DNA from: Halisarca cf. caerulea
Taxonomy: Eukaryota; Porifera; Demospongiae; Chondrillida; Halisarcidae
Assembly (NCBI GenBank): GCA_963170055.1
Contig: CAUJGJ010000072.1
Span: 1,601,001 to 1,665,000, forward strand
DNA length: 64,000 bases
Direction: 5' to 3'
Position 1 is the first letter of the stretch. The number at the start of each line of letters is the position of its first letter. Below the pieces are notes generated by a model. That model was not told the DNA's origin and did not search any database. It worked only from the letters and a program-made list of their open reading frames with translations. Shown in pieces: positions 36,330-61,093 of the stretch. The translations under genes and the position numbers were made by a program.

Positions 36330-39300
36330 ATGGCCACAAGTATATCTCTTAAGCCACCCAATGCCTTCAATTTTCGTTCACCGGATGAATGGCCGAAATG
36401 GCGCAAGCGATTTGAACAATTCCGCACTGCTTCAGGCCTGTCGAAGGAGGATGAGGTACGACAAGTAAGCACGCTACTGTATTGCTTAGGAGAAGAGGCT
36501 GAGGATGTCCTAGCATCAGCAAATATCACCGAAGACGACAGGAAGACCTACAAAACGGTCCTGGATAAACTCGACGCTTTCTTTCAAGTCCGAAAAAACG
36601 TGATTTTCGAAAGGGCGAGGTTCAACAAGCGCGACCAGAAAGAGGGAGAAGCAGCCGAAGAGTACATCACTGCCTTGTACAACCTGGTCAGCAGTTGTGA
36701 TTACGGCGATTTGGCCACAGAAATGATTCGTGATCGACTCGTGGTAGGTATTCGAGATACCGCTTTGTCTCAACGTTTGCAGGTAGACCCAGACTTGACT
36801 TTGGAGAAGGCTAAGAGACAAATACGCCAAAAAGAGGCAGTATCGCAACAGCAGCATACTCTGGGGAGAACAGGGCCACAGGAAACCACCGTGAGCTTTG
36901 TTCAAGGCAAGAAACCTGCCTCGCACCCCAAGAACTTCCAGAGAAGACATCACCATCCACCACAACGCTCCCATCCGCAGGGGAAGCTACCCGGTACTTC
37001 ATGTACACGCTGTGGAGGCGCACAACACTCTAGGAATGTATGTCCAGCCAAGGATGCAACATGTCAAAACTGCGAAAAGAAAGGACATTATAGCCGCCAA
37101 TGTCTTTCCAAAGGCCGTCGAGTTGCTGAAGTTACGGATCATGATGATAACCAGGAGGTCTTCTTCCTAACCCCGATAGTCACCGACTCCAGCAACGCAT
37201 GGCACACCACTGTTTCTATTGAGGGACACAATGTCAGCTTCAAGCTAGACACAGGAGCAGAAGTCACCGCCCTAAACGACCTCACTAGTAAACAACTTGG
37301 CCTAGTTCTGACTGCGCCCATCAAGAAATTGTGCGGAGCAGACAGAGCTCCACTGGACGTGCTTGGAATGGCCTCTGCTACCATGACAACCACAAACGGC
37401 TCAACCAAACAAGATGTGTTTGTCATCTCGGGACTAAAGCACAATCTCCTAGGCCTTCCTGCTATCAAGTCTCTGGGACTGTTAACCCCTGTAGACAGCA
37501 TCCAACCTGACTCTCTAGAGGCCCAAGTCCACAACCACTTCCCAGAGCTTTTCACAGGCCTGGGGAGATTTTCAGGAGCAGAATTTGAGATTCATCTCAA
37601 AGATGACGCCAAACCCACTGCTCTCTACACTCCCAGGAAGATCCCTTTTCCACTACGTGAGAAAGTCCACCAAGAGCTACAGCGGATGGAATCGCTTGGC
37701 GTGATATCCAAAGTGGAGCAGCCAACCGAATGGTGTGCCGGGATGGTCGTCATCCCGAAGAAAGATGGAAATGTTCGGATATGTGTAGATTTGAAGCCAC
37801 TCAACACCAGCGTCCTAAGGGAGACACACCCTCTCCCAAGGGTTGATGATCTCCTAGCCCAACTCTCAGGAGCCAAGCTGTTTAGCAAACTGGACGCCAA
37901 CAGCGGTTTCTGGCAGGTGCCACTGGCAGAGCAAAGTCGCCATCTAACCACCTTCATAACACCATTTGGCCGGTATTGCTTCAATACCATGCCATTTGGC
38001 ATTTCCAGTGCACCTGAGCACTTCCAGAGACGGATGAACGAAATCCTGGAGGGCCTCCCAGGTGTTGTCTGCCTAGTGGATGACATCCTGGTACATGGAT
38101 CCAATGAAGAGGAGCATAAGAGTCGCCTGTTTGCTGTCCTTGATCGCATTCGTAAAGCCGGAGTCACTCTCAACACAGGAAAGTGTGTCTTCGCACAAAC
38201 CAGTACACGTTTTCTGGGACACTTTATCAATGCAGACGGAATCCAGGCCGAAACCGAGAAGACTTCCGCTATCACCAACATGGAGACACCCAAATCTGTT
38301 CCCGAACTCCGACGCTTCCTCGGAATGGTCAACCAGCTCGGGAAATTCTCACCAAACATTGCAGAATTGACCAAGCCATTGCGAGAACTACTCAGGAAAA
38401 AGTCTTCTTGGCTATGGGGACCACCCCAAGACACCGCATTTCAGAAAATCAAGACAGAGCTTGCCTCGCCGCCTCTCCTTGCTTGGTACGATCCATCTCA
38501 AGACACCAAAATCTCAGCAGATGCCTCCTCTTACGGTCTGGGAGCAGTCCTCTTGCAATGTCATGAAGATGTGTGGAGACCAGTTGCCTACGCTTCTAGG
38601 TCCATGACCAGCACAGAATTACACTATGCCCAGATCGAGAAGGAAGTTCTAGCTACCACATGGGCTGCAGAGCACTTCTCTGACTACATCATCGGTCGAG
38701 ATGTCCTCTTCAAAACAGACCACAAGCCTCTCATTCCATTGCTGAATACCAAGCATCTGGACAGCCTCCCTCCAAGAGTGCTTCGTTTTCGCTTACGTCT
38801 CATGAGGTTCAACTACTCTGTACAGTACGTACCTGGTACACTTCTCTACACTGCAGACACGCTGTCTCGCTCTCCACAGCAGTATTCTTCAGCCCATGAA
38901 ATCAGTGCCAAAAATCTGGAAACTCAGATAGCAGCAGTTACCTCTCAACTTCCCGCCACAGAAGACTGTTTGGAACGTTATCGCCAGGCTCAACAGGAAG
39001 ACCCACTCCTTTCACGTGTGATACGTTTCTGCCAAACCGAATGGCCAAACCGTCAAGCAGCTAAAGGTGATCTTCGTCCTTATTGGAAGGTACGTGCTGA
39101 GCTCACATACTGTGATCGCCTGCTTCTTTACGGAACACGCATTGTGATACCGAAAGCTCTTCAAAAGGATACTCTGACCAAGATCCACCATGGTCATCAG
39201 GGTATTCAGAAATGCCGTCTTCGAGTCAACACATCCGTATGGTGGCCGGGAGTCTCTCAGCAGGTGGAAGACTACGTTCAAGGCTGTCACAAGTGTGCTC

Positions 39301-39551
39301 AGAACACACAACAATCCAAAGAGCCATTGTTGCCAACCCCTCTCCCACAACACCCGTGGCAAAGAGTAGCAGCTGACCTCTTTGAGAAGAATGGGAAAGA
39401 CTATCTCATAATGGTTGATTACTTTTCCCACTATCCGGAAGTCATTCAACTGACATCCACTACATCTGCTAGCCTGATCAACGCCGAGAATGGACTATCT
39501 CAGTCTTTTCCCACAACATTTAACGCCATCGTTTTGAACTCTGGTGAGTGA
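36330..39551 (+). CDS. gypsy 1 Gag-Pol polyprotein, up to a frame break in integrase
   Basis: 1073 codons from ATG 37 bases after the LTR. In order: capsid-like Gag (1-170); two zinc knuckles CX2CX4HX4C (about 229-259); aspartic protease with LDTGAE (about 306); reverse transcriptase with VDLKPLN and the catalytic LVDD (about 588); RNase H with SADASSYG and TDHKPL (about 730-800); integrase HHCC (H-x-x-G-H-x-G ... C-x-x-C, about 945-990) and the first catalytic Asp. The frame is lost at about 39480-39550, ahead of the second catalytic Asp. Confidence 0.95.
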   Translation: MATSISLKPPNAFNFRSPDEWPKWRKRFEQFRTASGLSKEDEVRQVSTLLYCLGEEAEDVLASANITEDDRKTYKTVLDKLDAFFQVRKNVIFERARFNKRDQKEGEAAEEYITALYNLVSSCDYGDLATEMIRDRLVVGIRDTALSQRLQVDPDLTLEKAKRQIRQKEAVSQQQHTLGRTGPQETTVSFVQGKKPASHPKNFQRRHHHPPQRSHPQGKLPGTSCTRCGGAQHSRNVCPAKDATCQNCEKKGHYSRQCLSKGRRVAEVTDHDDNQEVFFLTPIVTDSSNAWHTTVSIEGHNVSFKLDTGAEVTALNDLTSKQLGLVLTAPIKKLCGADRAPLDVLGMASATMTTTNGSTKQDVFVISGLKHNLLGLPAIKSLGLLTPVDSIQPDSLEAQVHNHFPELFTGLGRFSGAEFEIHLKDDAKPTALYTPRKIPFPLREKVHQELQRMESLGVISKVEQPTEWCAGMVVIPKKDGNVRICVDLKPLNTSVLRETHPLPRVDDLLAQLSGAKLFSKLDANSGFWQVPLAEQSRHLTTFITPFGRYCFNTMPFGISSAPEHFQRRMNEILEGLPGVVCLVDDILVHGSNEEEHKSRLFAVLDRIRKAGVTLNTGKCVFAQTSTRFLGHFINADGIQAETEKTSAITNMETPKSVPELRRFLGMVNQLGKFSPNIAELTKPLRELLRKKSSWLWGPPQDTAFQKIKTELASPPLLAWYDPSQDTKISADASSYGLGAVLLQCHEDVWRPVAYASRSMTSTELHYAQIEKEVLATTWAAEHFSDYIIGRDVLFKTDHKPLIPLLNTKHLDSLPPRVLRFRLRLMRFNYSVQYVPGTLLYTADTLSRSPQQYSSAHEISAKNLETQIAAVTSQLPATEDCLERYRQAQQEDPLLSRVIRFCQTEWPNRQAAKGDLRPYWKVRAELTYCDRLLLYGTRIVIPKALQKDTLTKIHHGHQGIQKCRLRVNTSVWWPGVSQQVEDYVQGCHKCAQNTQQSKEPLLPTPLPQHPWQRVAADLFEKNGKDYLIMVDYFSHYPEVIQLTSTTSASLINAENGLSQSFPTTFNAIVLNSGE

Positions 39552-40224
39552 TAATGGACCACAATTTGTTTCTTCCGAGATGAAAAAGTTTGCCTCAACC
39601 TACGGATTTGAACAAGTCACCAGTAGCCCCTACTTTCCCCAAAGCAATGGCTTGGCGGAGAGAGGGGTGAGAACGATGAAACGGTTACTTGAGGATACTC
39701 AGGATGCCTACCTTGCTTTGTTGAGCTACCGTGCAACACCTTTGGCATGGTGTGGTCTAAGCCCAGCGGAACTCCTGATGGGCAGATGTGTGAAGACAGA
39801 TGTACCACAGCCTCTGAGTTCATTTATTCCATCTTGGCCTCATCTCAAAGGATTTGAGGAGAAGAACAGGCAGTACAAACAAAAGCAGAAAAACAACTAC
39901 GACCACCACCATCGGGTTCGCCCACTACCAAGCCTATCACCTGGTACTGACGTATGGGTAACCATTCAAGGTGGACAGGAACAAGGTAGAATCTCTACCA
40001 CAGCCCCTGCACCACGTTCTTACTTGGTAGACACCCCAAGTGGTTGCGTCCGAAGAAATCGTCATCACATCATTCCTCAGCCAGCAACTGCGGACACCCC
40101 CACTAATGCTAGAGACGATTTGCCACCAAATGTAGCCAACAGACCAGTTACTCGTTCGACAACTGGAACAGCCATCAACCCACCTGATCGCCTCAGCTAT
40201 CACCGAAAGGGAGATGTGGCATGA
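39544..40224 (+). CDS. gypsy 1 integrase C-terminal part, in another frame
   Basis: 226 codons. It starts at the SDNGPQF catalytic box, followed by the PQSNGLAER segment with the catalytic Glu and a C-terminal GPY/F-like segment (PRSYLVDTPSG). It continues the 1073-codon frame after a shift. Whether the shift is a mutation or a sequencing error cannot be decided here; programmed shifting at this place would be unusual. Confidence 0.88.
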   Translation: MSDNGPQFVSSEMKKFASTYGFEQVTSSPYFPQSNGLAERGVRTMKRLLEDTQDAYLALLSYRATPLAWCGLSPAELLMGRCVKTDVPQPLSSFIPSWPHLKGFEEKNRQYKQKQKNNYDHHHRVRPLPSLSPGTDVWVTIQGGQEQGRISTTAPAPRSYLVDTPSGCVRRNRHHIIPQPATADTPTNARDDLPPNVANRPVTRSTTGTAINPPDRLSYHRKGDVA

Positions 40225-43750: not shown

Positions 43751-45191
43751 ACTTTACGCCCCAGCCGTACATGACACTGTAGTGTATATCCAGTACCCAG
43801 TCCAGTGCTATTTGTCAATTGCTTGTTCACCGTGGCTTTGTTTTCTTTTGTTTATTTGTGTAAAAAATTTTTTGTCTGGCACACAGCATGCACTTTAATT
43901 TCTCACACGCTGCATAATTTTTTTCATTTTTCTTTTGTGTATCTTATGATGGGCCCACAACCATACATTTTGATTATATGCAACGTTTCCTCATGACATA
44001 TATTCTTTACTGTATCTCTCAAATGTTACATCAAATTAATCCACAATACCCACGAGTGCTTCCACCCTAATTTCTGAACTCATCCCTCTGGCTGCTTCGT
44101 AAGTCGACGCAGACCATCAACCTGTCTTTTCCATCATAACTTTAACGTAACTCACATTGTCCTATACTGGTTGTAAAGTATTGATTGATTGATTGATTCT
44201 CTATTCTTTCACATGCATTCTGCCACTCGGAAGTGTGACGTCACGTCTAAAGTGTGACGTAAACGAGCATGTAAGGTGTATAAAAATTAGGTAACCTACG
44301 TACGTAATTATTAACAGTTTAGACTAGAATAAAATGGGTATTGATCCATTGCAGTTTGTATACATTTGGGGATAGCTAAAGGTTAGAGTCAAGGGTTTGT
44401 TGTCTATAGTGCACAGTATGGACAAATTGGAATGGAGGATGTCACAGTCACAACCAAAGTTTTCGCTCTTGTGGCAAAGGTTACACCAGCTAATTCTACT
44501 GCCTCTGGCCCAATCCTTCACATCAATGGATATTGATCAACTATAACAGAGAAATTGTCCACATTGAGGAGGGCCTGTCCACAGCTACCAACTAGGCAAC
44601 CGAGATTCCATGTAGTCTATTGTGAGCATCTTACTGACAACTTTTGAATGGCACATCCCCTCGGGGTATAAGTAACATTAATTTGCTGATATCTTGTCTG
44701 TATGTTCACTAGTTGCATTTATAATAAGTGTATGCTGTTCAGATGTATGATGTTTTAGTAGTTTAGATTACCTCATGCATATAGTCTAGTGTTGCCAATT
44801 CTTTCCTCAATCCACATTTTTGCATTTTCAATGTACGTAATTCCTTTGTTAAAAGTACATGTATAGAGGAAAGGATAGGCTCGCATGCAGGTATTGACAA
44901 TGCCAGACTAGATCTTATGTTCACAATAAGTAAAAATGCCTAGTACAGGACCAGATGAGTACACATGTTCCAAGTTTTTCCATTGAGATTAAATTTGAAA
45001 TCTTTAAACTTCCCACTTGGGCTTCTCAAATCCTCTTCAGTGTTGGTATTCCAATATGTTTATGCATGATTTATGTAAATTCAATATCACTCACTGCCAT
45101 ACGTAGCACTGTATATGCAGTCCTTGTTTTCTGTTTATTTGTTGCTTCCAGTTCATGCTTATAGTAATTGTGATTTTACCTTTCCTTACAG
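43751..45191. other. region upstream of the VWA-E2 gene; probable intron or 5' flank
   Basis: No exon recognised. A (GATT)n microsatellite sits at 44181-44199. A good acceptor (polypyrimidine, CCTTACAG) ends at 45191, 16 bases before the start codon, so an untranslated first exon probably lies somewhere upstream. Confidence 0.4.
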
Positions 45192-45207
45192 CAGACATCT
45201 GTTAGTC

Positions 45208-47991
45208 ATGGCATTGTATATAAAGTACCGAACATTTCAGCCATTGTATCCAGGTCAACCAGAACAACAGATTGATGGTCTACACCCAGCAACCACCTTT
45301 GGGGAACTGGTGAAAGAAATTTGCCGAAAGGAGAGGAAGGACCAAGAAATCACAGCACATTTGTATCTACCCAATGGAATCCCTCTCAACCGCAATATTG
45401 CATCTGAATCCTGGACACTTCGTGACTGGCAAATTGAAAAAGGAGATCTTCTTCTTGTAATATTCTGTAACACTAAATATAATGGCCATGAGGATCTTTG
45501 CTCATCTGTCAACAATGGAAATATTGCTGATCCAAATGATGGCTCTTGCATGGTAAATATTATAGGTTTGAAAAGTTGCAAGATCCAGATTGATCAGCAT
45601 CAAGATAACTGTATGTCTCTTTATGGAAAAGTTTCCTCTGCTACCAACATCCCCATCGACTGGATGACTTTGCAGTACAATGGAGAGGACATTGAGAAAA
45701 GTGAAAGGCCTCTTAGAGAATTAGACTTCCACATAAAAGAATTCTCTAAACTTCTTTTGATACTGAATCCAAAGCCTTCTAACCCATTCTGGTACAGTCT
45801 GTTTAATGCATCAAAGTGCAAGCCTCTGATAGCTCAGTCAGATGTTGGTTTGTCAGCTTTCTACTCAGTTTTGTTTGTTATATCGCACTACGTTAGCAAA
45901 AATGGTATTGATCTGCACGTTCTTGGTTACCTACTCCACCTTACTGCTTGCCCGCCTCTTATTCATGCTTTGGCTATGCTTTTTGATAGAAGAATGATAA
46001 CAATTGCACAAAAGGTAGCTATCAATGAAATACTTTACGAAGTATTCAAGGAAATGTCTCCCAAAAGCACACCTGCAAAGGTATTTGAAGAATCCTTAAA
46101 ATGTTGGACAGCTATATTCTCAAATGCTGAATTGTTCCTCATCAAAGAAGACTATGAGAATTCAATGTCCTTCTTTTGCACTTCATGCAGCCAGCGTATT
46201 CATTATCCTCAATCATTAGATGAGAAATCAGAAGTTGTATTTTGTACAAATTGCATTGACAAATGCACAAAAAGCTACCATTTTAATAGAAAATTTGCCA
46301 AGTATATGATTGCTCTGCCTTTAGAGGATGATGTTTGCTACTGGAATTTGATCCCTGATGAAAGGATTTGGCCAATTCCAATGAAGCCATCAACTGCAAG
46401 GGGATCGTTTCGTGTTCCTGATTATCTCCAAATCCGAAAACCCAACGATTTACGTCTTAGACCCCAAGTGAATCTTCCACCTCAGCTTACACAGAATACA
46501 AAACAACATACTCAATCTGTGATTACAGTGATATTCACTGAACGAGCAAAGCAGCTTGATCGAGGGAAAACCCATTATCTTCTGGATCCATTGACAGGCA
46601 AAGAAGACCTATATGATCTCAATATGATAGACCACAGTCTTCAGGCCTTGGCAACAGGTGGAGTCTACAACAGACAAAGCTATATCACTGAACCACCAGA
46701 TGAAGCGGTCCTAGTAGTTCTGGATGTCAGTGGCTCCATGGGATCACAAGCTTATCCTCAATTTACGAAGTTAGATGTTGCCAAGATAATATTCACTGTT
46801 TTTGCTGAAAGAATTATGGCTTTTGGCTTCAATTTTGCTATAGGTCTAAACACATTTACGCAGTATACAACTAATATTTGTAAATTGTCCACTGCTGGTG
46901 AAACATTTGTCACTATTCTTACCAAAGAAGCAGACAAGCTGAGACATGGCGGAGGTACACGTCTCTGGTGTGCTCTTGATCAAGCCTGTAAAGAGCTAGA
47001 TGAAATAAAAAGAAGGTATCCCAAGTGTATTCGCCGTATTTTATGCCTTACTGATGGCCAAGATGGAAATGAAGCTCAAAGAAGAAGCTGTGTACAGGTC
47101 CTTTGTCAAAGCAGTATTGTCATGGATTGCCTCCTCATTGGTGATAACAACCCAGCTGCAAAGGCTGTTGCTTTTGCAACTGGAGGTCATGCCTTTTATT
47201 ATAGGAGGATAGAGGATGCTATGGGCCTACCTGACATGGAAGCATTCCTATCAGTCAGACTGAGAGAATCTGTGTTAAATGCAGGAAAAGCTCCTAGAGA
47301 ATCCCATCTTGCCAGACTTCAGCACAAAGCATATTCTTTGCACATTCCTGTGAAAATCAACTCTGAATTTTGCACTTTGTCAACGTTTCCAATTGAAGCT
47401 TTGAAGAAAATTGCTACCCAAGGCTCAGTACCAATGCGTCAAGGTAATCAAGTAAAATATGTCCTGAAAGGTTTAGCAAGCATGGCTAAATTGCCAATTC
47501 ATGGAATAAATGTTTTCCCCATCCAGCAGGATGTCACCTTTTGGAAAGTTGTTCTCACTGGGCCTCCAAATTCACCATATGAGGCTGGCCATTTCATTCT
47601 TAACATTCACTTCCCAGATGACTATCCAACAAGCCCACCTGACATCCGGTTTGAGACCAAAATCCTACACTGCAATGTGACAGAGGATGGTCACATTTGT
47701 TGCTACATGCTCAACAGGAACTATTACTCGCCAGATTTCACAATAAGGGAAATACTCAAAGAAATTTATGATCTACTGAGAGCACCGGAGGTGGTTGACC
47801 TTGCTGATGGTGGAAGAGCTTTAGATTATAGACTCAACTATAGAGAATTCAATGCAAGAGCTAAGGAAGAAACTCAGCGCAAAGCCCGTACTTCACTGGT
47901 AACTCACTGTCAGAGCCTCACTGGCATGGCATCCCCTCCTACATCTGATTATGATGACATTCCTCCTGATGCATGGTTTTTCTTGAACTGA
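45208..47991 (+). CDS. UBL-UBL-zinc-VWA-UBC (E2) fusion protein
   Basis: 927 residues in one uninterrupted exon. The ATG at 45208 is chosen because a splice acceptor (CCTTACAG) ends just upstream; the longer in-frame start at 45115 would lie in the intron. Domains: ubiquitin-like fold 1 (2-86) and 2 (104-186; GIP-like NIPIDWMTLQYNGEDI); helical segment (190-310); Cys4 site C324, C327, C346, C349; VWA (500-680) with complete MIDAS D506-S508-S510, T584, D616; C-terminal ubiquitin-conjugating fold (745-890) with catalytic-position C831 in GHICCYML. The usual HPN reads HCN (821-823), the Asn being kept. Inference: a cytosolic E2-type enzyme whose VWA and UBL parts recruit partners. The combination is rare, and I know no named animal protein with it. 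Confidence 0.9.
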   Translation: MALYIKYRTFQPLYPGQPEQQIDGLHPATTFGELVKEICRKERKDQEITAHLYLPNGIPLNRNIASESWTLRDWQIEKGDLLLVIFCNTKYNGHEDLCSSVNNGNIADPNDGSCMVNIIGLKSCKIQIDQHQDNCMSLYGKVSSATNIPIDWMTLQYNGEDIEKSERPLRELDFHIKEFSKLLLILNPKPSNPFWYSLFNASKCKPLIAQSDVGLSAFYSVLFVISHYVSKNGIDLHVLGYLLHLTACPPLIHALAMLFDRRMITIAQKVAINEILYEVFKEMSPKSTPAKVFEESLKCWTAIFSNAELFLIKEDYENSMSFFCTSCSQRIHYPQSLDEKSEVVFCTNCIDKCTKSYHFNRKFAKYMIALPLEDDVCYWNLIPDERIWPIPMKPSTARGSFRVPDYLQIRKPNDLRLRPQVNLPPQLTQNTKQHTQSVITVIFTERAKQLDRGKTHYLLDPLTGKEDLYDLNMIDHSLQALATGGVYNRQSYITEPPDEAVLVVLDVSGSMGSQAYPQFTKLDVAKIIFTVFAERIMAFGFNFAIGLNTFTQYTTNICKLSTAGETFVTILTKEADKLRHGGGTRLWCALDQACKELDEIKRRYPKCIRRILCLTDGQDGNEAQRRSCVQVLCQSSIVMDCLLIGDNNPAAKAVAFATGGHAFYYRRIEDAMGLPDMEAFLSVRLRESVLNAGKAPRESHLARLQHKAYSLHIPVKINSEFCTLSTFPIEALKKIATQGSVPMRQGNQVKYVLKGLASMAKLPIHGINVFPIQQDVTFWKVVLTGPPNSPYEAGHFILNIHFPDDYPTSPPDIRFETKILHCNVTEDGHICCYMLNRNYYSPDFTIREILKEIYDLLRAPEVVDLADGGRALDYRLNYREFNARAKEETQRKARTSLVTHCQSLTGMASPPTSDYDDIPPDAWFFLN

Positions 47992-49614
47992 TAGTCAAGG
48001 AATACAATGATTACTATGCCATTCCTATTTTTTCCATCACACACTCTGTGAAATGCCCACATAATTATTGAAACTACTTACACAGCCAATTACTCTATAA
48101 CAATAACTTTACTGTATAATATTATGCTACTGACGCTTTAGTTACTTGATTGCTTATTGTAGTATGCTTATGATGTTTATTATGATGATTTATGGTATTT
48201 GAAGACAATTAATGTTCGATATATTAATTGTTCTATAGCTAAGGCTATCGATATTATAGATCATGAATTACATAATATGCACATGTACTGTACGTATTAT
48301 TATGCAAGTTGCAATTTTCGATCAATTGTGCATAGTGCTTTGAACTGCATGCATGCATCGATCATCATGCAACTGATGATGATGGCTGGTGATAGAATTA
48401 TCAACTGTGTATAATTATTAAAATTTTTATTAACATTATAATGTTATAATACTTGAACAAGTGTACCTGTAGCTGTGTGCTTTTGAAGTTTCTTGGATTT
48501 GGAGTGAAAAGACATCATCCAAATGCATCTTTGTCACTGCTCACAAAATCAATAGCAGTGCATGGCGCATGTGGAGTTAACTTACTGTAGTGTGATCAAG
48601 TTTTGATACAATTTTAACTAACGAGTTGTATGATGGTACTGTAGGTAACATGAGGAAGTGACCAACTGCATGAGTGAAGAGTATAATTAATGCACTGTAT
48701 TTGGGATGACAAAATGTTGGGTAATCATGTATGTGCTGAGAAATGTATACAGAAACTGAGCTCAAGCAGAGAATTATTAAAGATCTTTTGATTGTCTGAA
48801 GCTCAAGGAATATATTGGATAAACTTAATGTGCATGGCCAGTGTATGTGGTATATTATGCTGCATACAGAGATAGGAAGATTCTAAGTCTATAGTATTCA
48901 TTCACCATGCAAGGGTGGCCATAGAGATTTGGTATACCGTATTTAACGGAGTATAAGCCACACCATGGTTTTGAACAGCATTATCACTTCATCAGCCATA
49001 ATGAACTATTTGGTGCGTAAGTCACACCTCATATTTTGCCAGTAAAATTTAGGCATCAAAACTGTGCATGACTTACAGTATACCCCATAAAATACAATAA
49101 TTTGCACATTATAAACACCAGCTACAGTCTTGCAGTACCACTGCAGTATATAGTTGATCTCTATAAACAACTTTAATGTATAATGCTGTTGGCATGCGTA
49201 CATGGTTGTGTATTAATGAATCTGCTAACAATGCCACATAAAATAAATTACAAGTATATACCTGGCTGCTGTATGCATAAATCTGCAGCTAGGAGTGGCA
49301 GTGTGAACTTAAGCTCTAACTATGCATGTGAGCTAATCAGCAATATACAGTAGGTTGTCTGGGGAATCACTGTAATCAATTCCATTATGTGATTATATAA
49401 AACCAAGGTCCAGGCCCAGGTGCCAGAAGGACATGCACAATAGAGACTCACGTACGTACATACTGATTGAACCAGTAAGTTATACTTCCTGTTGCTATGT
49501 GCATGTGCAATACCTTTGCTGTACGGTAAATACAATGGGATTTGGTTCTATGTGATGGCATCTGTGCCTCATAAATGGGTTGGATAAATCAGGTGGATAG
49601 GATACTACAGTTAT
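47992..49614. other. 3' flank of the VWA-E2 gene, intergenic
   Basis: No AATAAA close to the stop; nearest ATTAAA-like and AATAAA-like hexamers are scattered over several hundred bases. AT-rich, no gene recognised. Confidence 0.4.
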
Positions 49615-49967
49615 TAGCAGGGTTTCCCCCAGATAAAAATTAAAGGGGGGGGGTATGGTGGTTAGCATTGCTTGGTACCTGGCTTTCTAGTTTTCTTGGC
49701 TGAAAACTCTGTTTTTTTACAATTAGATGTGGGTATTTGCTGGAGTGAACAACTATATTGAAAACACTGTATGGTTATTACCAGTGACAATATGTTTATT
49801 ATTAGAATTGAGTTGTTTTCGTGTTGTGTAGAATTGAGTTTTTGTGCTTTTTTCAAGCTTTTAGTGTACTACAATGTCATTAAGGTTGAAAGTTTTGCTA
49901 TCCAAGATTATATATAGGGGGGCGCAGCGCCCCCCCCCCCCCCCCTCTTTAGGGGAAACACTGTATT
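49615..49967. mobile_element. MITE with CAGGGTTTCCCC ends
   Basis: Left CAGGGTTTCCCCCAG, right complement of CAGTGTTTCCCCTAAAG, with G/C-runs just inside both ends (49645-49653 and 49917-49945). 353 bases, non-coding. Ends resemble hAT-type MITEs; the target duplication is not clear. Confidence 0.7.
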
Positions 49968-51093
49968 AGTGATGGGGATGTACATGCAACAGGGTGTCGA
50001 ATAAATAAGATGTGACTGCATTCATTCACTGTCATGTTTTGTGCTACAAATATAGAACCTATAGAATACAATTATTCACTCATGACAAAAGAACAAAAAG
50101 CTGCATTATATTCTTCTAACTAGACTCTACCTGCCTACCAAATTTTGAAAGATTCCAACAATGTTGCATGATTTCCTTCGTTGCGACCCCTATATATTTA
50201 TATTGCATGCATGGGTGTTATTAAAGGATGCATATTATAGATACTCCAACCTACGCAACATAGGTTGGAGTATCTATATATGACATAAGCACATGTCCTT
50301 GCATTGTGTACACAGTGCAAGCCTTTGCAATCTTTTCACACACTTCTAATAGTAATTAATTGGAGGTTGCCAATGGCAACAATACGCAACAAAGTTCGCA
50401 TCACACTTTCATTGCACAAACAAGACTATAGGGAACATACAGTACCACATTATTTGCAGTACCTCTAGTGCAGCTGTAGCATTGATACAGACACACCAAG
50501 GGTAATAAATTAACTCAGGCTAATTCGCCCATGTATGTGTCTGTATCAACGTTACACCTGCACAAGAGGTACTACATGTAAAATACATGTAATACCATCA
50601 GACAACACATCACATGCAACATCACACACATATTATCCATTTCACCTCATGCACTCACCCATTAATATTGTACTAATAGAATAGTGTACTATCACCCTGT
50701 TATATTAACTACACATGATTACACTAGCTTCATGCTGGCTTAAAACTCACCGTGCAGCCCCGACTGCATGGTATATCACAAACTCATGCATGATGTTACA
50801 ATGTGTATACCCTGTTCCCAAGGCTCATTTTTGTATCAGATACCCCTAAATTTGTACCCTCCACAGGCAACCTGTAGTGGAGTATAACATTATATATCAG
50901 TATGAAAACCTAGGGTTATAGGGTTAGGGTTGGGGTTAGCGTCAAGACTTGAGGGACAGACGAGAATGGAAAACCAATGGAAAAGGAAGAAACGTCAACA
51001 CTAGTGATGGCAATTATAGGGTGAGACAAGATTCATGAAATTGAACCAATTGAGAATGAGTACATAGGGAGAGACCAAGATGAGAAAGCTTTG
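49968..51093. other. intergenic with two hairpins and short TTAGGG-like text
   Basis: A perfect palindromic hairpin sits at 50238-50279 (ATAGATACTCCAACCTA arms). A foldback of about 115 bases at 50457-50572 has arms with TTGATACAGACAC and GTACCTCT. At 50917-50938 two to three TTAGGG-like units occur, too few to be a telomere. No gene is seen. Confidence 0.6.
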
Positions 51094-52714: not shown

Positions 52715-55700
52715 CTGTGTGTGAGGAAATTACAGGTGCCACATACTTTATAAGCATGCAATACAACAATATTCATAAAGCATGTACAAAGACTCTATGC
52801 ACAGTATACACAACAATATGAAGTATGGTAGTACTGCATGTGGTACATATACATATGTACAATTACGTAACACTGAAAAACATGGCCACCATCCATTCAC
52901 ACAAATCTGATTTCATCCAAAAACTAATAATATTTAACACCTATCACAACATTATTGGTGCATTTTGGTACACTATATACAGTACGTAGCTATCAAGATG
53001 CAGAAGTTAAAAGCTTCCTAGGATCATCTCTGTTAAGAATTTGGAAACACAGACTGTGAGGTACGACTGTGCAGGATGTAGGAATTTACCAGTACACTCG
53101 CTTCAACTAAACTCTGTCTCGACTTACAGTATCTTTGTTTCAAGAGTTTTTGGACAATGCCTCTTTACATGATTGTGTGTCAGTGTTTTTAACACTCTTA
53201 TATGTATCTGCTGTGCAAGAGGCAGTAATAATACTATAGAGGTTTAAGGATGCATACCTGTTAAATATAATGAAAACATAGCAAGCTATGGAGATGCCCT
53301 TTGAAATCAGTTATACATAATATAGCCACATATAAAATGTAGTTAATATCAAGGCTGTCGGAGCTAGTACGGCTGGTGCGGCCATAGCCATACCACTTTT
53401 GGTCAAAAAAGTTAATTTGCAAGCTAAACCATTCTACGTATCAAAGAAGAGATTTTTTGTTTGATTTCCTAAAATCCAGCTTCAGACCTCTGTAACTACC
53501 AAACTATCATTGTATGGTTTCCACCATTTTATTCTTGTGGCATGATGTGACTTTGTTAAGTGTTAAGTAGTTATTGTGTAGACTATTCTAGCTGGTAGTA
53601 ACCTGTTGTGTCTTGTTAGGACTTGCATGACTATCTAGTGCTTGCTGTCTGTATTGTAGTTAGTTAGTAGTTTTAATGAGTTGAGTGACAGTGAACGTAT
53701 AGTACTTTGTTAGGCCCCGAGTTTCTAGGCTAGGTATAGTTAGAGCTGAGAGTGTGTGCAGATCGGGAGCATTAGAGATATACCACATGGTGTCAGAAGT
53801 GGGATGGCCAGCGTTAGACTCCAACCTCCAGCTAACTTCGACTTCAAACAGCCTGATGATTGGTTACGATGGAAAAGACGTTTTGATCAGTTTCGCCTCG
53901 CTTCGGGTCTCAGCTCGGAGGACGACGAACGACAAGTTTCCACGTTACTTTACTGCATGGGCGAGAATGCAGAAGAGGTTCTTTCTTCAACAAACATCAG
54001 TGCAGAAAATCGCAAGAAGTACGACCAAGTAGTCACCCATTTCGACGGATTCTTCAAAGTTCGGAAGAACATAATTTTCGAAAGAGCTCGATTTAACCGC
54101 AGGAATCAGAAATCAGACGAAACGGTAGATGAATTCATCACCAGTTTGTACAACCTAGCGGAAAACTGTGCCTTCGGTGATCTAAAGGAAGAAATGATCC
54201 GTGATCGAATCGTTGTTGGAATTCTCGACGCAGCTCTCTCTGAACGGCTGCAGTTGGACGCGGATCTCACTTTAGAGAAGGCTAAGACCATGGTACGCCA
54301 AAGAGTGGCAGTACAGGAGCAACAAGCTCTTCTCAAGAAAGATTTCAAGGAAGAGCACACGGTCGAATTCGTGCAGCGAAGTAAGCCGTACAAAGGTAAC
54401 CGACAGTCGTTTAGTCTCGCGGCGCCAGACCACTTCCCCCTAGAAAAATCGGGAGAAGCGGTCTGGTATTTAACCTAGTGCAAACTCTTCCGCCCACGTT
54501 CATTCATCAGCCCACAGGAATGCAAACTTGTCGTAATTTCAAGGTAAGATTGCGCAACAAGGTGAGATCATTACTAGCGTCGTTAGCGAAACAATAGCAC
54601 AAAGTTAAGCGCGTCGTTTCACGGAACAATAGCAACGATGGATCCAGCCTGCAGCGTATGCAAGAGCCCGATTAGGGATAGAAAGAAAAGACTAATGTTG
54701 TACGGGCCTACGGAGAGGGCCAAGGATGTTCGTTCTGGTATTTTGATTTATTACAAAGACGAACTCGGCCAGAATATCGCAGTAGAGGATGTCTTTCCCC
54801 CTGTAAGTAGCACCTACGTCTGCCAAGAGTGTTGCAACTTTTTCATCGAGCTGCCTAAGCTCAAGGTGCGATGGGAGCAAGCCTTAAAGTTCTGCAGAAC
54901 AACCTTGCCAGCAGCGTCACCTGCAGACAATGGAACACCAGCTGTAAGGATGAGAACGCCGCTAAGAACTCCCCTAGCAAGTTCTGAAAGAGAACAGGCA
55001 ATATCCTGTAAATGCACATGCAGATGAAGAGTCAGTACAAACATGTATGCTATAGAGGACTAACCATGTTCTGATGCAATGGGCCTCATCCACAACAAAT
55101 GCTACAAGATTTTTCTGGTACATCTCGTTGCGGAGCATCTCCCTTAACATGTGAGTATAGCACAAGTTCTCTGGGCTGACCAGGCTATGGCTACCCTTTA
55201 TTACGCGATCTACTGCATAGGGATCCGTTTGTAGTTCCCCCAAAAATTCGGCATCAATCCCCATTGGGACGAACCTTCTCTTCTGTTCTGCCATGAGAGC
55301 TGTTAGTGGGCTGGAAGCATCGCGTACACGAGCGTTTTCCCATACCCGGTTGGCAGAGAGACGAAGACGTCCCTACCTAGGGCGAATGCTAATACAGCTT
55401 TTAGCTGTTCGGATTTTAGGGAAAAACCAAAATGATGGGCGATCAAATGAATAATACACGTCTACGTCAATATCTGCAGAGTGTCCATCGCCGAGCAAGA
55501 CTAGCAAGCGCACGTTCGCACCAAAATTTGACACGTCACAATTAGCGGTCGAGGTCACCTGATATCAAAGCGTCCCAACATTCCACGACATTAACCAGTT
55601 TGCACTAGGTTAAATACCAGACCGCTTCTCCCGATTTTTCTAGGGGGAAGTGGTCTGGCGCCGCGAGACTAACAGTCGTTCAAGACGTCTGGAAAACCTT

Positions 55701-58700
55701 CGCCATCGAACGGTAACAGACAACAACAGCATGTGCCAAAAGGAAAATGTAGCCGTTGTGGGAAAGGATCCCATTCCCGCCAGCAGTGCCCTGCGAGGGA
55801 CGCAATCTGTCACAAGTGTCGGAAGAAGGGACATTACAGCTCACAATGTTTTTCCAAATCAATCGCAGATGTCACCTTGGGACCAATTCTTCACTCTCCT
55901 GAAGGGGCTAAGGACTCAGACTACTACGACACCGCATATCTTGATGCTGTTGGTACAGGGCAATCTAGCAAGTGGACAACAACAATTTCAATAGCAGGTG
56001 CTGAAGTCATCTTCAAATTGGACACTGGAGCTGAAGTAACAACCATCTCAGAGACCACCTTCAAGTCCCTCAAGTTGGGAAAGCTGGAAACTGCAGATAA
56101 GGTGCTGTGTGGTCCTGATCGCAAACCCCTTGGGGTACTTGGGCGTGTATCTTGTACCCTCGCTCACAAAGGGAAGAAATGCCAGCAGTCCTTGTATGTC
56201 CTGAAGCATCTACGCCACAACTTGTTGGGACTACCAGCAATCCAAGGATTACAGTTGCTCACCCAGGCTGACAGTGTGAGTACCAAGTCGATTCCAGACC
56301 AATTCCCCACCCTATTTCAAGGGCTGGGCACTTTCCAAGAGGAGTATGAAATTAAGCTTAAGCCAGATGCTACGCCCTTCGCACTCTACACACCGCGAAA
56401 TGTTCCATTACCTCTTAGGAAGAAGGTGGAGCTTGAAATTCAACGAATGGAGGCTCTTGGAGTCATTGCTAAAGTCGATGAGCCAACACCCTGGTGCGCA
56501 GGAATGGTGGTGGTCCCCAAGAAGTCTGGGGACGTCCGTATTTGTGTTGATTTTAGGCCGTTAAATGAGAGTGTACTACGGGAGGTGCATCCACTACCAA
56601 AGGTTGAGGAAACGCTAGCCAAGCTTACGGGAGCCACTGTCTTCAGTAAGCTCGACGCAAATTCAGGATTTTGGCAGATACCACTTTCAAAGGAGTGTCA
56701 ACATCTCACCACATTCATAACACCTTTTGGAAGATACTGTTTCCACAAGTTACCATTTGGGATCAGTAGTGCCCCGGAGCATTTCCAAAAGCAGATGAGC
56801 CGCATTTTGGAAAGAGAGGAAGGCACAGTATGCCACATTGATGACGTGCTTGTCTTTGGACGCACACAGCAGGAGCATGACCTGCGATTGCACAGTGTTC
56901 TGCAGAAGATTGCAGCTGCTGGTGTTACCCTCAATGAGGCTAAGTGCGAGTTCAACAAGCAATGCATCACTTTTCTGGGCCATGTCATTGACAGCAATGG
57001 TATATCCCAAGACCCAGAGAAGACTGAAGCAATCACCAAGATGAAACAGCCGCAGACTACAACTGAACTTCGCAGATTTTTGGGAATGGTGAATCAACTT
57101 AGCCGGTTTACTCCCAACATTGCAGAGATCAGTCAACCGCTCAGAGAGTTACTTAGTACCAAAAGAGCATGGATGTGGGGCCCAGCCCAGGAGGAAGCTT
57201 TTGTCAAGCTCAAGGAGGAGCTCACATCACCATCTGTGTTGATGGTGTATGATCCTGAAGCACCTACCAAGGTCAGTGCAGATGCATCAATGTATGGTAT
57301 TGGAGCTGTTCTATTGCAGGAAACACCAGGTCCAGCGAAAACTTGGAGACCAGTCTCTTATGCATCTCGTGCCATGTCTCAGACTGAGAGACGATATGCA
57401 CAAATTGAGAAAGAAGCACTGGCAGTCACCTGGGCCTGTGAACGCTTCGCAGCGTTTATCCTTGGCAAGAAGATTATGATCGAGACCGACCACAAGCCCT
57501 TGGTCCCTATTCTTAACAAGAAGGATTTGGATACTCTGCCACCACGTGTCCTTAGATTCCGCCTTCGACTAGCTCGTTTTGATTACCTAGCATCTCACAC
57601 TCCAGGAAAGCTTCTTTATACTGCAGATGCTCTATCCAGAGCACCACACACTGAAGCAAATTCCTTGGATGTAGAGGAAGCAGACAAAACAGAGTCCTTT
57701 GTCAACTATATACGATCTTCTCTACCAGCTCACAGCCACACGTTGGAGGCATACAAGCACAGCCAACAATCGGATGTTGTTTGTGCTAAGTTGATTTCAT
57801 ACTGCAAGACAGGTTGGCCAGACAGAAGAAAGCTAGACAGCAGCATATTACGTTTCTGGCCAGAGAGGAACAATCTTTCTCTATCTGACGACCTACTACT
57901 GCATGGAAGGAGGATCGTGGTTCCTTCTGCTTTGAGGAAGAAGACTTTGGAGAAAGTTCACCGCGGTCATCAGGGAATACAACGGTGCCGTCTCAAGATT
58001 GTGTCATCCGTATGGTGGCCAGGAGTAGCCAAAGAGATGGAAGAATTGGTCAGAAATTGCACTCATTGTACAAAGATAACACCACCACCAAAGGAGCCAA
58101 TGATCGCTAGCCAGCTACCGCAACATCCATGGGAAAAGGTTGGATCCGACCTGTTTGAATTCCGTGGTTCACAATACCTTCTTGTTGTCGATTATTTCTC
58201 GCGATACATTGAGGTACAGAAGCTCAACTCCACAACATCATCCAGCATTATCGCCTCTATGAAAGCTATGTTCTCAAGACATGGCATCCCGTCCATACTA
58301 ATGTCTGACAACGGACCTCAATATGTGTCACAAGAGATGAAAGATTTTGCAGCAGCATACGGGTTCTGTCACCTAACAAGCAGCCCACACTATCCCCAGA
58401 GCAATGGTTTAGCGGAGAGGTCTGTTAAGACCATGAAGTCTATCCTATGCCAAACGGATGACCAGTATCTAGCATTGCTCACCTTCCGAACCACACCAAT
58501 GCCCTGGTGTGGATTCAGCCCAGCTGAATTACTCATGGGGAGGAAACTGAGGACAGATATACCCCAGGTGTCTGATGATCTCATACCCCAATGGACTTTT
58601 CTTGACACTTTCCGCGAGAAAGATGCTGAATTGAAGACGAAAGAAAAGCAGCAGTATGACAGACGTCACCGTGTGAGACCTCAAGACCCTTTGCCTGATA

Positions 58701-61093
58701 ATCAAGAGGTTTGGGTTCGTACAGGGGACAGGCAAGTCCCTGGGCGCATACTCAGAAATGCAGGACCTCCTCGCTCTTACATTGTTGAGACACCCTCCGG
58801 ACAAGTCAGAAGAAATCGAGCACACCTCACTCTCAATCGAGATGGAAATGACAATGACGACAGCTTACAGGAAGCGCAAAGAGGTGCAACAACATCAAAT
58901 GATCTTGATTGTCCAAGTCGTAACACGCGTTCTCGTACTGGAACAGTTATTGCCCCTCCAAATAGACTAACGTACAGGAGAAAGGGAGATGTGGCATGAT
59001 GTGACTTTGTTAAGTGTTAAGTAGTTATTGTGTAGACTATTCTAGCTGGTAGTAACCTGTTGTGTCTTGTTAGGACTTGCATGACTATCTAGTGCTTGCT
59101 GTCTGTATTGTAGTTAGTTAGTAGTTTTAATGAGTTGAGTGACAGTGAACGTATAGTACTTTGTTAGGCCCCGAGTTTCTAGGCTAGGTATAGTCAGAGC
59201 TGAGAGTGTGTGCAGATCGGGAGCATTAGAGATATACCACAATTCTGACATTGACGAGCATCACGGCAACTACATAAGTCCATAGACTACTGAAATAGCT
59301 CAAATATACCCCTCCATTTAGCGGCAAAAAGCAGTTTTCTATGAAATACAGCATCCTTTTCCTTCTCTTCAGTGCAAATGCAATCAGTTTGCTTAGAATC
59401 CTAAAATAACTTTACTTTTACCCTCAGTGCAAATACTAATCAGTATTGCTTAAAAGCAATGGTGAATATATTCAACAGACATGCTTCTTTAAACCTCTAT
59501 TGGTTTATTATCTCCTCAGCCACAGCAGATACATACATAATTCAGCTGCTTCCAGACACACAAACTATAACTAGATCAAAAACATAGTGGATACAAAATA
59601 CATAAATCTAAAGAATGTCCTTATAACCCAGAGGCAAACAGTAAGTAGTATTGTAATAAACCTTATGATAGATAGGTGAATACAACATGAACATGCCACA
59701 AACATAACATCACATACTGCACAATGCTATCATTCACATGTTCAGTGTCTACCTGTACAACACACCTGTAGTTGGCTCCAGAGGATCCTGGTTCGCACAT
59801 GTAGCAATTTCAAGTCTCTTTGATTCTTTGTTATAGCCCTATTAAATGGCATTACTCAAACACATACTGCTACAAATATGTACATAGTGAAGCCCCTCAC
59901 CAGCCAACCCCATCCAGATCCTTGCACAGTTACACTCTTCGTGGACAACTTCGACTTCATCTCTTCAAAGGTGCCAAAATCCCTCTTTATAGCCTCCATA
60001 AGTTCACCTGCAACACAAGAGTGTGATGAGAGTACAATCTATGCACAATGCAATGTACAGAGAGGATCCGCGCAGCTGAATACACAAGTACATCTTAATA
60101 GGGAAACATGAAGGATTGACATTTGTATACTGTATAGCACACATTCACTAAGAGTAGAACTTTGTGGTTGTTAGGATGCAGCTCTGAGCCACATTTTATA
60201 TACACTTGTATGCATGAAATTACTTGGTTGTTTAGAGTAGTACTAAGTCAGTGTTTCAATCCTAAATAAAAATTGTTAAAACTTTGTAGAGAACCCATTG
60301 GTGAATTTACAACTCTAAAACTTTCAAGCGAGATAATAGTCAATTGAAATTCATGATCTTGGATTACAAAGAAAGTTTCCAATAAGTTACTATGATTATA
60401 AAATTAGACTAGAATAATATCACTGGCACATAGACATACATAAAAAAATATCTAAACGTCTGCTCATGTATGTAGGAAGCTTGCTTATGAACCACTGAAA
60501 ATATGAAGAAGATAAAATAGACCAAGTTACCTTAATCAGTCCCATTCTTGTAGTAAAAAGTCACCAATCTGTATAGGTACTAATTTACGTGAATTTCCCG
60601 AATAAGCTTGAATTTATGAAAATTCAAATGCAAATGTTTGGTTAAATTCATAGTCTATAAATAATAACCTAATGTACAGTAGGGATTCGTCCATTTGCAA
60701 AAATAAAATCGTGAAATACAACGAAGTTTTTGATTCACAAAATATATGCCCCACAAAAATTAGTGCTACGTACGTACATACTGTATACAGTAAGTACGTA
60801 CATTGTACTTGCTACCTACCTACTAACAATAGCTGAACATGCTTGCACATAAACTGTAGATAAACGTATGACACCAAACAAATGACAAACACGACTACAT
60901 TTACACTACAACAAGATAACAATTTGAACTAGTAGCATTCCTAGAAACACTGCTGTCAACCAGCATCAGCCCTCACCTTCTGGTTCACCACCTCCTTTTG
61001 GGGAAAGATTGGTCCAAAAGATTGAATGGTTAATGTGCCCTCCACCATTAAACTTAATTGCAGGTTCCAGCTGAATGACAGCCTTAGCATCAT
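52572..61093 (-). CDS. SOD2: manganese superoxide dismutase, last four exons (5' end not found)
   Basis: Converts superoxide to hydrogen peroxide and oxygen; in animals the enzyme sits in the mitochondrial matrix. Exons found: 60977-61093, 59901-60007, 59766-59838, 52572-52714; all have GT-AG borders and phases match at each junction (1,0,1). Signatures in order: [19 protein letters not shown] (second metal His), [32 protein letters not shown] (the last Asp and His ligands) and the NWTNVTERF end with stop at 52572. The exon or exons for the transit peptide and the first His ligand were not found; they lie above 61.1 kb or outside the window. The last intron, 7.05 kb, holds gypsy element 2. 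Confidence 0.95.
52812..53110. repeat. diverged family A fragment in the SOD2 intron
   Basis: Shares the ACTGAAAAACATGGCC-ACCAT text and following lines with the start of family A, then jumps to the GGATGTAGGAATTT tail. Internally deleted. Confidence 0.6.
53804..54411 (+). CDS. gypsy 2 Gag, N-terminal part before the insertion
   Basis: Starts at the ATG 16 bases after the LTR. Capsid-like Gag, similar over its length to gypsy 1 Gag (shared pattern [28 protein letters not shown]). Interrupted at codon 203 by an inverted-repeat element; the frame continues at 55672 after one copy of the 9-base duplication. Confidence 0.92.
54638..55027 (+). CDS. Cys-rich ORF of the TAGTCTCG element
   Basis: 129 codons, ATG about 150 bases inside the left inverted end. 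Cysteines C5-x2-C8 and C-x2-C-C at about 67-71, followed by a helix ([18 protein letters not shown]) and a Pro/Ala-rich tail. The spacing suggests a zinc-binding module of a treble-clef or ZAD kind. No family recognised; it may be the first exon of a longer element protein or a captured host exon. Confidence 0.5.
   Translation: MDPACSVCKSPIRDRKKRLMLYGPTERAKDVRSGILIYYKDELGQNIAVEDVFPPVSSTYVCQECCNFFIELPKLKVRWEQALKFCRTTLPAASPADNGTPAVRMRTPLRTPLASSEREQAISCKCTCR
55062..55445 (-). pseudogene. RecQ-like helicase fragment inside the TAGTCTCG element
   Basis: Minus strand in order: a Q-motif-like [19 protein letters not shown], Walker A PTGYGKT (about 55340), then after a stop/frame change a second piece (55062-55294) ending in the Walker B/DEAH box [12 protein letters not shown]. 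After it a GTTAGT donor would end the exon. The order and the VDEAHCI-x-x-W text fit RecQ helicases. The C-terminal helicase lobe is missing and a stop separates the motifs, so it is not functional as it stands. Confidence 0.75.
55681..58999 (+). CDS. gypsy 2 Gag-Pol, part after the insertion
   Basis: Continues in frame from the interrupted Gag. Two zinc knuckles (about 55745-55850), protease LDTGAE, RT with VDFRPLN and the catalytic box HIDDVL (I-D-D in place of the usual V/M-D-D), RNase H with SADASMYG and TDHKPL, integrase [20 protein letters not shown] with the catalytic Glu, and a C-terminal [11 protein letters not shown] segment. Ends at 58999 just inside the 3' LTR. No other stop or shift is seen in its 1.1 thousand codons. 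Confidence 0.95.
58990..59241 (+). repeat. 3' LTR of gypsy 2
   Basis: 252 bases, one difference to the 5' LTR (53536-53787). Followed by the ATTCT target copy. Confidence 0.95.
59247..59765. other. SOD2 intron remainder
   Basis: A short near-duplicate (CAGTGCAAAT-CAATCAGT followed by TTGCTTA) occurs at 59370 and 59428. Nothing else seen. Confidence 0.45.
59766..59838 (-). CDS. SOD2: SOD2 exon
   Basis: 73 bases, phase 0 in and 1 out; acceptor TTTAATAG, donor GTGTGT. Codes [20 protein letters not shown]. Without an ATG, so missed by simple ORF calling. Confidence 0.93.
59901..60007 (-). CDS. SOD2: SOD2 exon
   Basis: 107 bases, phase 1 in and 0 out; acceptor GTTGCAG, donor GTGAGG. Codes [18 protein letters not shown] and ends at VQGSGWGWL. 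Confidence 0.94.
60008..60976. other. SOD2 intron, nothing recognised
   Basis: AT-rich; a small TACGTAC-rich palindromic cluster near 60765-60800. Confidence 0.5.
60977..61093 (-). CDS. SOD2: SOD2 exon with the second metal His
   Basis: 117 bases, phase 1 in and 1 out; acceptor TTATGTAG, donor GTGAGG. Codes [15 protein letters not shown] and the [17 protein letters not shown] signature. Confidence 0.95.

Follow-up and report, generated by a model that had tools for sequence, protein, structure and literature searches.

We analyzed a stretch of 64,000 nucleotides from the sponge Halisarca cf. caerulea (assembly GCA_963170055.1, contig CAUJGJ010000072.1, positions 1,601,001 to 1,665,000 of the forward strand), hereafter the window, and focused on one gene within it, which encodes a protein of 927 residues combining two ubiquitin-like (UBL) domains, a von Willebrand factor A (VWA) domain with a metal ion-dependent adhesion site (MIDAS), and a ubiquitin-conjugating enzyme (E2) domain. 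Comparison with paralogs and homologs suggested that this gene is a derived, U-box-less form of a family of conserved one-chain E2–ubiquitin ligase (E2–E3) design in animals, which appears to be new. The locus comprises the following features.

44787 to 48208, no strand assigned: DNA segment at 92–93% identity with two copies on contig C3 (L010; L011 from 44891), from DNA comparison.
45176 to 45191, plus strand: putative 3' splice site TTACCTTTCCTTACAG of an intron in the 5' untranslated region (UTR), the 5' exon not being located; the same stretch occurs in both contig C3 copies.
45208 to 47991, plus strand: coding sequence of the UBL-UBL-VWA-E2 protein, one open frame of 927 residues plus stop, from translation.
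45214 to 45471, plus strand: UBL1, residues 3–88, predicted beta-grasp fold, from the model (blocks of predicted local distance difference test, pLDDT, 83–95), with weak sequence support.
45547 to 45771, plus strand: UBL2, residues 114–188, ubiquitin-like, without C-terminal Gly-Gly; from the model, Pfam ubiquitin matches over the cut-off in several homologs, and a family profile that matches polyubiquitin.
45790 to 46134, plus strand: helical domain, residues 195–309, with CPPL-x2-AL-x2-LF; from invariant or nearly invariant alignment columns and helices in the model.
46159 to 46260, plus strand: zinc-type site C324-x2-C327-x18-C346-x2-C349, at the position that the internal U-box occupies in paralogs, from alignment.
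46696 to 47277, plus strand: VWA domain, residues 497–690, with a complete MIDAS (D506, S508, S510, T584, D616).
47446 to 47886, plus strand: E2 (UBC) domain, residues 747–893, with Cys831 at 47698–47700 and HCN replacing HPN; from Pfam, phmmer, and Foldseek.
47926 to 47988, plus strand: C-terminal tail with D-A-W-F, at the place of the U-box in paralogs C155 and C172; (A/T)WF tails occur in window-type homologs and in the C89 paralog.

The AlphaFold model of the protein, built on a 50-sequence alignment, was confident (pLDDT 88.4; predicted template modeling score 0.85) and contained two beta-grasp UBL domains, a helical domain, the four-Cys site, a VWA domain with a MIDAS, and a UBE2D-like E2 domain with Cys831; a model from 15 sequences reached a pLDDT of 67.1, too poor for any use beyond the VWA match. 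The listed rows of the structure comparisons against the Protein Data Bank covered the VWA and E2 parts. An earlier note, made from the letters of the window alone, had read the gene as a one-exon protein joining two UBL folds, a zinc site, a VWA domain, and an E2 domain, and the open reading frame, Pfam, and the confident model bore this out. All of the residues it had named (C324, C327, C346, C349, D506-S508-S510, T584, D616, and C831) were found at the positions given, and the structure prediction that it had proposed as a check recovered both UBL folds. The Pfam search that it had also proposed agreed in part, with UQ_con (8e-34) and VWA_2 (5e-7) over the cut-off, whereas VWA (PF00092) and ubiquitin (E 0.05) stayed below.

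UBL1 was modeled with strands at residues 3–9 and 19–25, a helix at 31–41, and strands at 48–53 and 81–88. Sequence matches for this domain comprised a below-cut-off ubiquitin match at residues 35–84 of homolog P0017 (E 5e-4) and Rad60-SLD matches (E 0.06–0.15) in homolog P0006 and paralogs C172 and C89. For UBL2, the Pfam ubiquitin family scored over the cut-off in P0003 and P0004, which are 67–68% identical to the window protein, and the family profile matched polyubiquitin chains (E 2.5e-73) in nine stretches, best at profile positions 136–211, which by column mapping would correspond to UBL2. UBL1 was also considered as a repeat of UBL2, and the profile comparison was not significant (7.7% for the window type; 0.2% for the U-box type). 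The earlier note had suggested that the UBL domains might serve as the protein's own modifier; both are internal and lack Gly-Gly at their ends, residues 1–483 contain no Gly-Gly, and the pair occurs only at 484, 581, 659, and 868, which speaks against that use. The helical domain gave no Pfam match in the window protein. Forms related to its CPPL-x2-AL-x2-LF motif occur in Oscarella and fishes.

The metal residues of a MIDAS VWA domain (DxSxS with Thr and Asp) are present in the window protein and nearly invariant in the 50-row alignment (A3), with D506, S508, and S510 in 50/50 rows, T584 in 49/50 (one Lys), and D616 in 49/50 (one gap). The DxSxSM motif occurred in 167 of the 168 proteins collected, being absent in P0118. 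The UBC fold of the C-terminal part was found by Pfam (8e-34), Foldseek, and VIA-align: phmmer aligned the catalytic region with that of UBE2D1 (3.2e-24), and the first nine Foldseek rows had TMt values of 0.87–0.92 and root mean square deviations (rmsd) of 1.2–1.8, with 30–36% identity in the first rows. In the alignment, Cys831 falls on the Cys of the UBE2D1 stretch "GSICLDIL", and it lies within a G-x-I-C context. In the A3 column of this residue, Cys occupied 45 of the 50 rows, the remainder being three gaps and two Phe. The E2 motif was found in 164/168 collected proteins, all 164 with Cys and HCN; P0016, P0044, and P0048 end before the motif, and P0017 has Phe. On this comparative evidence we call the domain an E2 fold with a putative catalytic Cys rather than a proven E2.

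The four zinc-type Cys residues were present in all 15 window-type rows tested (the window protein included) and also in C89. In A3 (50 rows), the C324 column held Cys in 48, and that of C327 held Cys in 18, Ser in 27, and Thr in 4; the column of C346 held Cys in 16, Asp in 13, and Glu in 20, and that of C349 held Cys in 18 and otherwise varied. These columns are compatible with a window type that has zinc where the U-box uses other contacts, though the direct profile comparison (below) does not bear this out.

To place the gene among its paralogs, we searched the genome with the UQ_con profile, which gave 36 matches, six of them in open frames of at least 600 residues (the next longest frame had 232). 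These six loci lie on contigs C155, C3 (two copies, C3a and C3b), C69 (the window), C172, and C89, and a VWA_2 search (62 matches in all) found the same six. C155 and C172 have the order SAM-like-UBL-UBL-helical-U-box-VWA-E2-U-box, with the SAM-like part below the cut-off; their C-terminal U-boxes were recognized by Pfam (2e-14 in C155 and 1e-16 in C172). By profile comparison, the internal domain of the U-box type matched the C-terminal U-box at 95.2% (E 2.7e-8; two controls 0.1%), and the corresponding internal domain of fish and acorn-worm proteins did so at 93.9% (E 1.5e-7). C155 and C172 thus hold an E2 and a recognizable E3 domain in one chain, and the window protein does not. The window protein is 30% identical to C172 and collinear with it from UBL1 to the E2 domain (alignments A1–A3), and neither Pfam nor the alignment revealed a SAM-like N-terminus or a C-terminal U-box in it; because these two parts are absent, we term it a derived branch rather than a typical member. 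Support for the SAM-like part is weak across the family: it is below the cut-off in C155, C172, P0021, P0042, P0043, P0048, and P0129, is unmatched in the full-length Amia protein P0046, and is annotated as SAM_TNK in the precomputed annotation of P0154 and P0158. The full-length paralog on contig C89 (L013:1595-4534) is a pseudo-E2 in which Phe stands for the catalytic Cys, with the zinc Cys residues and MIDAS kept; it has HPN, not HCN.

The window gene is under purifying selection. Across 925 codons, its differences from C3a, an intact copy at 93% identity, number 67.5 synonymous and 61.5 non-synonymous, giving a ratio of non-synonymous to synonymous rates (dN/dS) of 0.237. By segment, dN/dS ranged from 0.126 to 0.351 in 8/9 segments (0.22 in the E2 part), and the ninth, a tail of 32 codons, had two non-synonymous and no synonymous changes. 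The frame of C3b is broken near residue 336, and its two pieces gave dN/dS of 0.263 and 0.273 against the window gene; at the other five family loci, UBL1 to the C-terminus lies in one open frame. Homology to the C3 copies runs from 44787 (C3a) or 44891 (C3b) to 48208–48209, beyond the open reading frame on both sides, with more patches up to 50842.

Upstream of 45208 the frame stays open as far as an ATG at 45115, which would give 958 residues. We took 45208 as the start because the closest homologs begin there (MALY, MPSY, MASY, or MATY) and the acceptor-like TTACCTTTCCTTACAG lies just upstream. This sequence ends 16 bases before the ATG and is kept in both contig C3 copies, so that the coding part is probably a single exon behind a 5'-UTR intron. 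An analogy for such an intron is found in paralog C172, whose short coding exon ends in GAT, before GTAAGT; in homolog P0019 this exon runs on into the giant exon (junction read by eye).

Full-length homologs of the window protein were found at E 0, well outside what chance would give, the first protein search yielding 17. A search with C172 yielded 34 proteins, scored among the best 7985 candidates (those sharing most words), and querying with a bowfin VWA-E2-U-box segment gave 307 matches, of which 120 were listed. Named members in the C172 search were Oscarella lobularis, the acorn worm Glandiceps talaboti, and fishes; among the bowfin-query matches listed, the only names were of ray-finned fishes (2/120 rows were nameless). 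Resting on 120 of the 307 matches and the best 7985 candidates, this distribution supports no claim of loss in tetrapods or other animals. P0002, from a JGI collection, is 99% identical to the window protein, and together with the nearest named relative (Oscarella) it would point to a sponge-like host. Homologs were mostly labeled "uncharacterized" or "hypothetical", and the few automatic labels name a single domain ("Ubiquitin-conjugating enzyme E2 E2", "ubiquitin-protein ligase", "protein-tyrosine kinase").

Several relatives have further domains. The EukProt proteins P0051 and P0052, probably protist proteins, carry an N-terminal RING, and their VWA domain is split after the MIDAS strand by an inserted U-box with a UBL following it; this arrangement was found in two different transcripts. 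An N-terminal RING has been added in three spiny-rayed fishes (P0129 of Trachinotus, scanned; P0133 and P0158, by precomputed annotation), and an OTU protease domain is fused in P0162 of Gadus chalcogrammus.

A quick maximum-likelihood tree of the VWA-E2 part (48 rows, rooted on two EukProt rows) placed the 15 window-type rows and two Cys-less proteins in one set, with a Shimodaira–Hasegawa-like approximate likelihood ratio test (SH-aLRT) value of 99. The 19 U-box-type rows stood apart (support 95), Oscarella stood alone, and the fish and acorn-worm proteins grouped with P0018 (86). This tree is most simply, though not conclusively, read as a loss of the U-box in the window set, because the other branches and the outgroup carry U-boxes (in the outgroup at another place in the chain; P0038, in the U-box-type group, has none in precomputed annotation).

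In a Foldseek comparison of the window model with viral models (BFVD), one match was full-length, the E2-annotated protein A0A1V0SEK3 of Hokovirus HKV1 (1329 residues; E 3.3e-31 over 1326 columns, 14% identity, TMq 0.44, rmsd 22.4). With such an rmsd and TMq, the arrangement of its domains differs from that of the window model when both are treated as rigid bodies. The next viral match had E 9.9e-10 over 184 columns. A bacterial or viral origin was considered, and one scan each of IMG/VR (31 pattern-matching stretches) and prokaryote genomes (20) yielded no relative by tblastn.

The reading that we favor, and hold to be probable, is that the window gene encodes a constrained, probably working UBE2D-like E2 on an adaptor body, and belongs to a derived branch of an apparently undescribed one-chain E2–E3 family. 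In this branch the SAM-like part would have been lost together with the C-terminal U-box, and a half-RING-like site with four Cys would stand where the family has its internal U-box. Computation provided the domain order, the intact catalytic and MIDAS residues, the purifying selection, the supported U-box-less set, and the Cys-less relatives; the direction of loss, activity, partners, and targets are what we infer from them. In the proposed mechanism, a ubiquitin-activating enzyme (E1) would charge Cys831 with ubiquitin, a target or partner would be held by the VWA MIDAS with the aid of the UBL domains, and ubiquitin would be passed on directly, via an outside RING or U-box protein, or via a U-box paralog in trans. 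A window protein that is a reduced form of its family, as this reading has it, would not be visible from the window alone.

A number of observations weigh against this reading. The catalytic context is non-canonical, and the case is purely computational. HCN stands for HPN in the window protein, with His821 and Asn823 kept and Pro replaced by Cys; departures from HPN occur in some accepted E2s too. The position of the UBE2D L1-loop Phe, which we take to be an E3 contact, is Thr in the alignment. The catalytic Cys is Phe in two related proteins (C89 and P0017), and a use as scaffold is thus possible for the window protein too. No U-box or RING was found in the window protein by Pfam up to E 1, and the zinc region, tried as a U-box, matched the internal U-box at only 2.8% (E 0.016) and the C-terminal one at 0.0% by profile (controls 0.0 and 0.5%). 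In the tree, P0017, C89, P0018, and others are long-branched, and the window-type rows without the two Cys-less proteins have a support of only 45.

Three other explanations were weighed against these data. The Cys-less proteins raise the question of whether the window protein might be a regulatory scaffold, in the manner of ubiquitin E2 variants (UEVs) or decoys, with an E2 fold that does not charge ubiquitin in vivo and binds ubiquitin, E1, or the U-box paralogs so as to limit or position C155 and C172. C89 and P0017, which fall in the same set, have indeed lost the Cys to Phe with MIDAS and zinc Cys residues kept, and the absent C-terminal U-box and the Thr at the presumed E3 contact point the same way. 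However, the window protein retains Cys831 and Asn823, as do 12 of the 13 further window-type rows in A3; the E2 part has a dN/dS of 0.22; and HCN does not indicate decay, since all 164 homologs with the motif have it. We consider the scaffold unlikely for the window protein. The decoy role entertained in the earlier note is accordingly less likely for this copy, and it fits the Cys-less C89 paralog. It is in our view quite unlikely that the CxxC...CxxC site functions as a half-RING priming the E2 in cis, which would leave the window protein a one-chain E2–E3. Its four Cys residues lie on columns with Cys, Ser, or Asp/Glu in most other rows, presumably the first-site positions of the RING/U-box fold, and C172 has CPIC...DLDC there with a below-cut-off RING match (E 0.06). 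The profile match to the internal U-box is only 2.8%, and second-site ligands are not evident. The "self-contained conjugation machine" of the earlier note suits the family, in which C155 and C172 carry an E2 and U-boxes; the window protein has no recognizable E3.

The coding part being free of introns, together with the structural match in Hokovirus HKV1, might suggest a recent retrocopy or a horizontally acquired single-exon gene; the earlier note had proposed retroposition or acquisition from the lack of introns. We find this very improbable. The giant exon is common to the paralogs, open at 5/6 loci and broken at the sixth, and database homologs, several on megabase contigs, also look like single open frames. 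No intron-bearing parent of the UBL-to-E2 part was present among the six loci found, the single IMG/VR and prokaryote scans confirmed no relative, and the viral match, at 14% identity, may stem from a host gene taken up by the virus. The copies extend past the open reading frame on both sides, and DNA duplication is the simplest reading because the C3 copies share the acceptor-like site and 317–421 bp of upstream DNA with the window.

Beyond the favored reading of an E2 on an adaptor body, a function of the family can be considered. None of the papers listed in searches of an open-licence library describes a SAM-UBL-UBL-VWA-E2-U-box architecture. Salmon LOC106564892 (P0056 by name) was one of four genes that B cells from three sites had in common among their top-100 differentially expressed genes six weeks after infection with salmonid alphavirus, the other three being RTP2-like, HERC6, and nuclear factor 7 (PMC11649679). 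E2s and U-box ligases in infected salmon cells are treated in general terms in another study (PMC10061729). A role of the family in innate defence might be proposed from this more weakly; against it, the expression data are a single mention of a distant fish member, with the direction of change not seen. Possible, though doubtful, is a wider picture of an ancient, unnamed one-chain machine (SAM-like part, two UBLs, U-box, VWA, E2, U-box) ranging from sponges to fishes, which would serve innate defence, undergo lineage-specific duplication, gain RING or OTU domains, and have been copied by a giant virus. Its sponge-like branch without the C-terminal U-box would have turned the internal U-box into a zinc half-RING, yielding E2-only and Cys-less regulators of the full enzymes.

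The surroundings of the gene contain further elements. Two putative Gypsy-type retroelement coding regions flank it, at 36330–40224 (~5 kb upstream) and 53756–58999 (~6 kb downstream), with gag-pol-like open frames by reading. At E 0.01, Pfam matched none of the three minus-strand open frames that lie between 25022 and 33577. Dispersed repeat-like DNA, 71–88% alike, lies 3' of several family copies (window 48346–50842, L009:4878-5202, L010, and L011). On contig C3, an open frame upstream of the C3a copy (L010:6904-8001) has PHD-finger and RickCE-like catalytic-domain matches, both below the cut-off.

E2 and E3 are normally separate proteins. If the favored reading is true, the family would be a natural test of an E3 activating an E2 in cis and of a fixed E2 limiting chain type, and would offer an evolutionary series from a full E2–E3 through an E2 without U-box to an E2 fold without Cys. 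The presence of the family in fishes, with one salmon member responding to virus infection, means that its role could be tested in laboratory fish lines. Canonical E2s of the UBE2D/Ubc13 class share the fold and the catalytic Cys and Asn with the window protein; in contrast to them, all 164 motif-bearing members collected have HCN for HPN, and the E2 domain is fused to ~740 N-terminal residues. Likeness to the intracellular VWA domains of TFIIH and Rpn10 is one of fold only, and we know of no E2 in those proteins.

UBE2O, described as an E2–E3 hybrid (PMC10393103), and BIRC6/BRUCE, described as a multi-domain E2 (PMC2964712), resemble the family in having a UBC domain within a large multi-domain chain, and the U-box paralogs follow this design of E2 and E3 in one polypeptide. 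In contrast, the window protein itself has no recognizable E3 domain. To our knowledge, neither UBE2O nor BIRC6/BRUCE has a VWA domain, paired N-terminal UBLs, or a U-box in the chain. Mb_UBOXa of Monosiga, described as an ancient gene with similar forms in Naegleria, Trimastix, and Spironucleus and not in animals, combines a U-box and a VWA domain in one chain, as the family does; the accessible text mentions no E2, SAM, or UBL, and it is by this description that we set it apart (Marin, 2010; PMC3087547). Fungal clade 6A PARPs, which carry a C-terminal UBCc domain, are a likewise unusual E2 fusion and, as far as the accessible text describes them, have a PARP catalytic domain where the family has UBL and VWA domains (PMC2964712).

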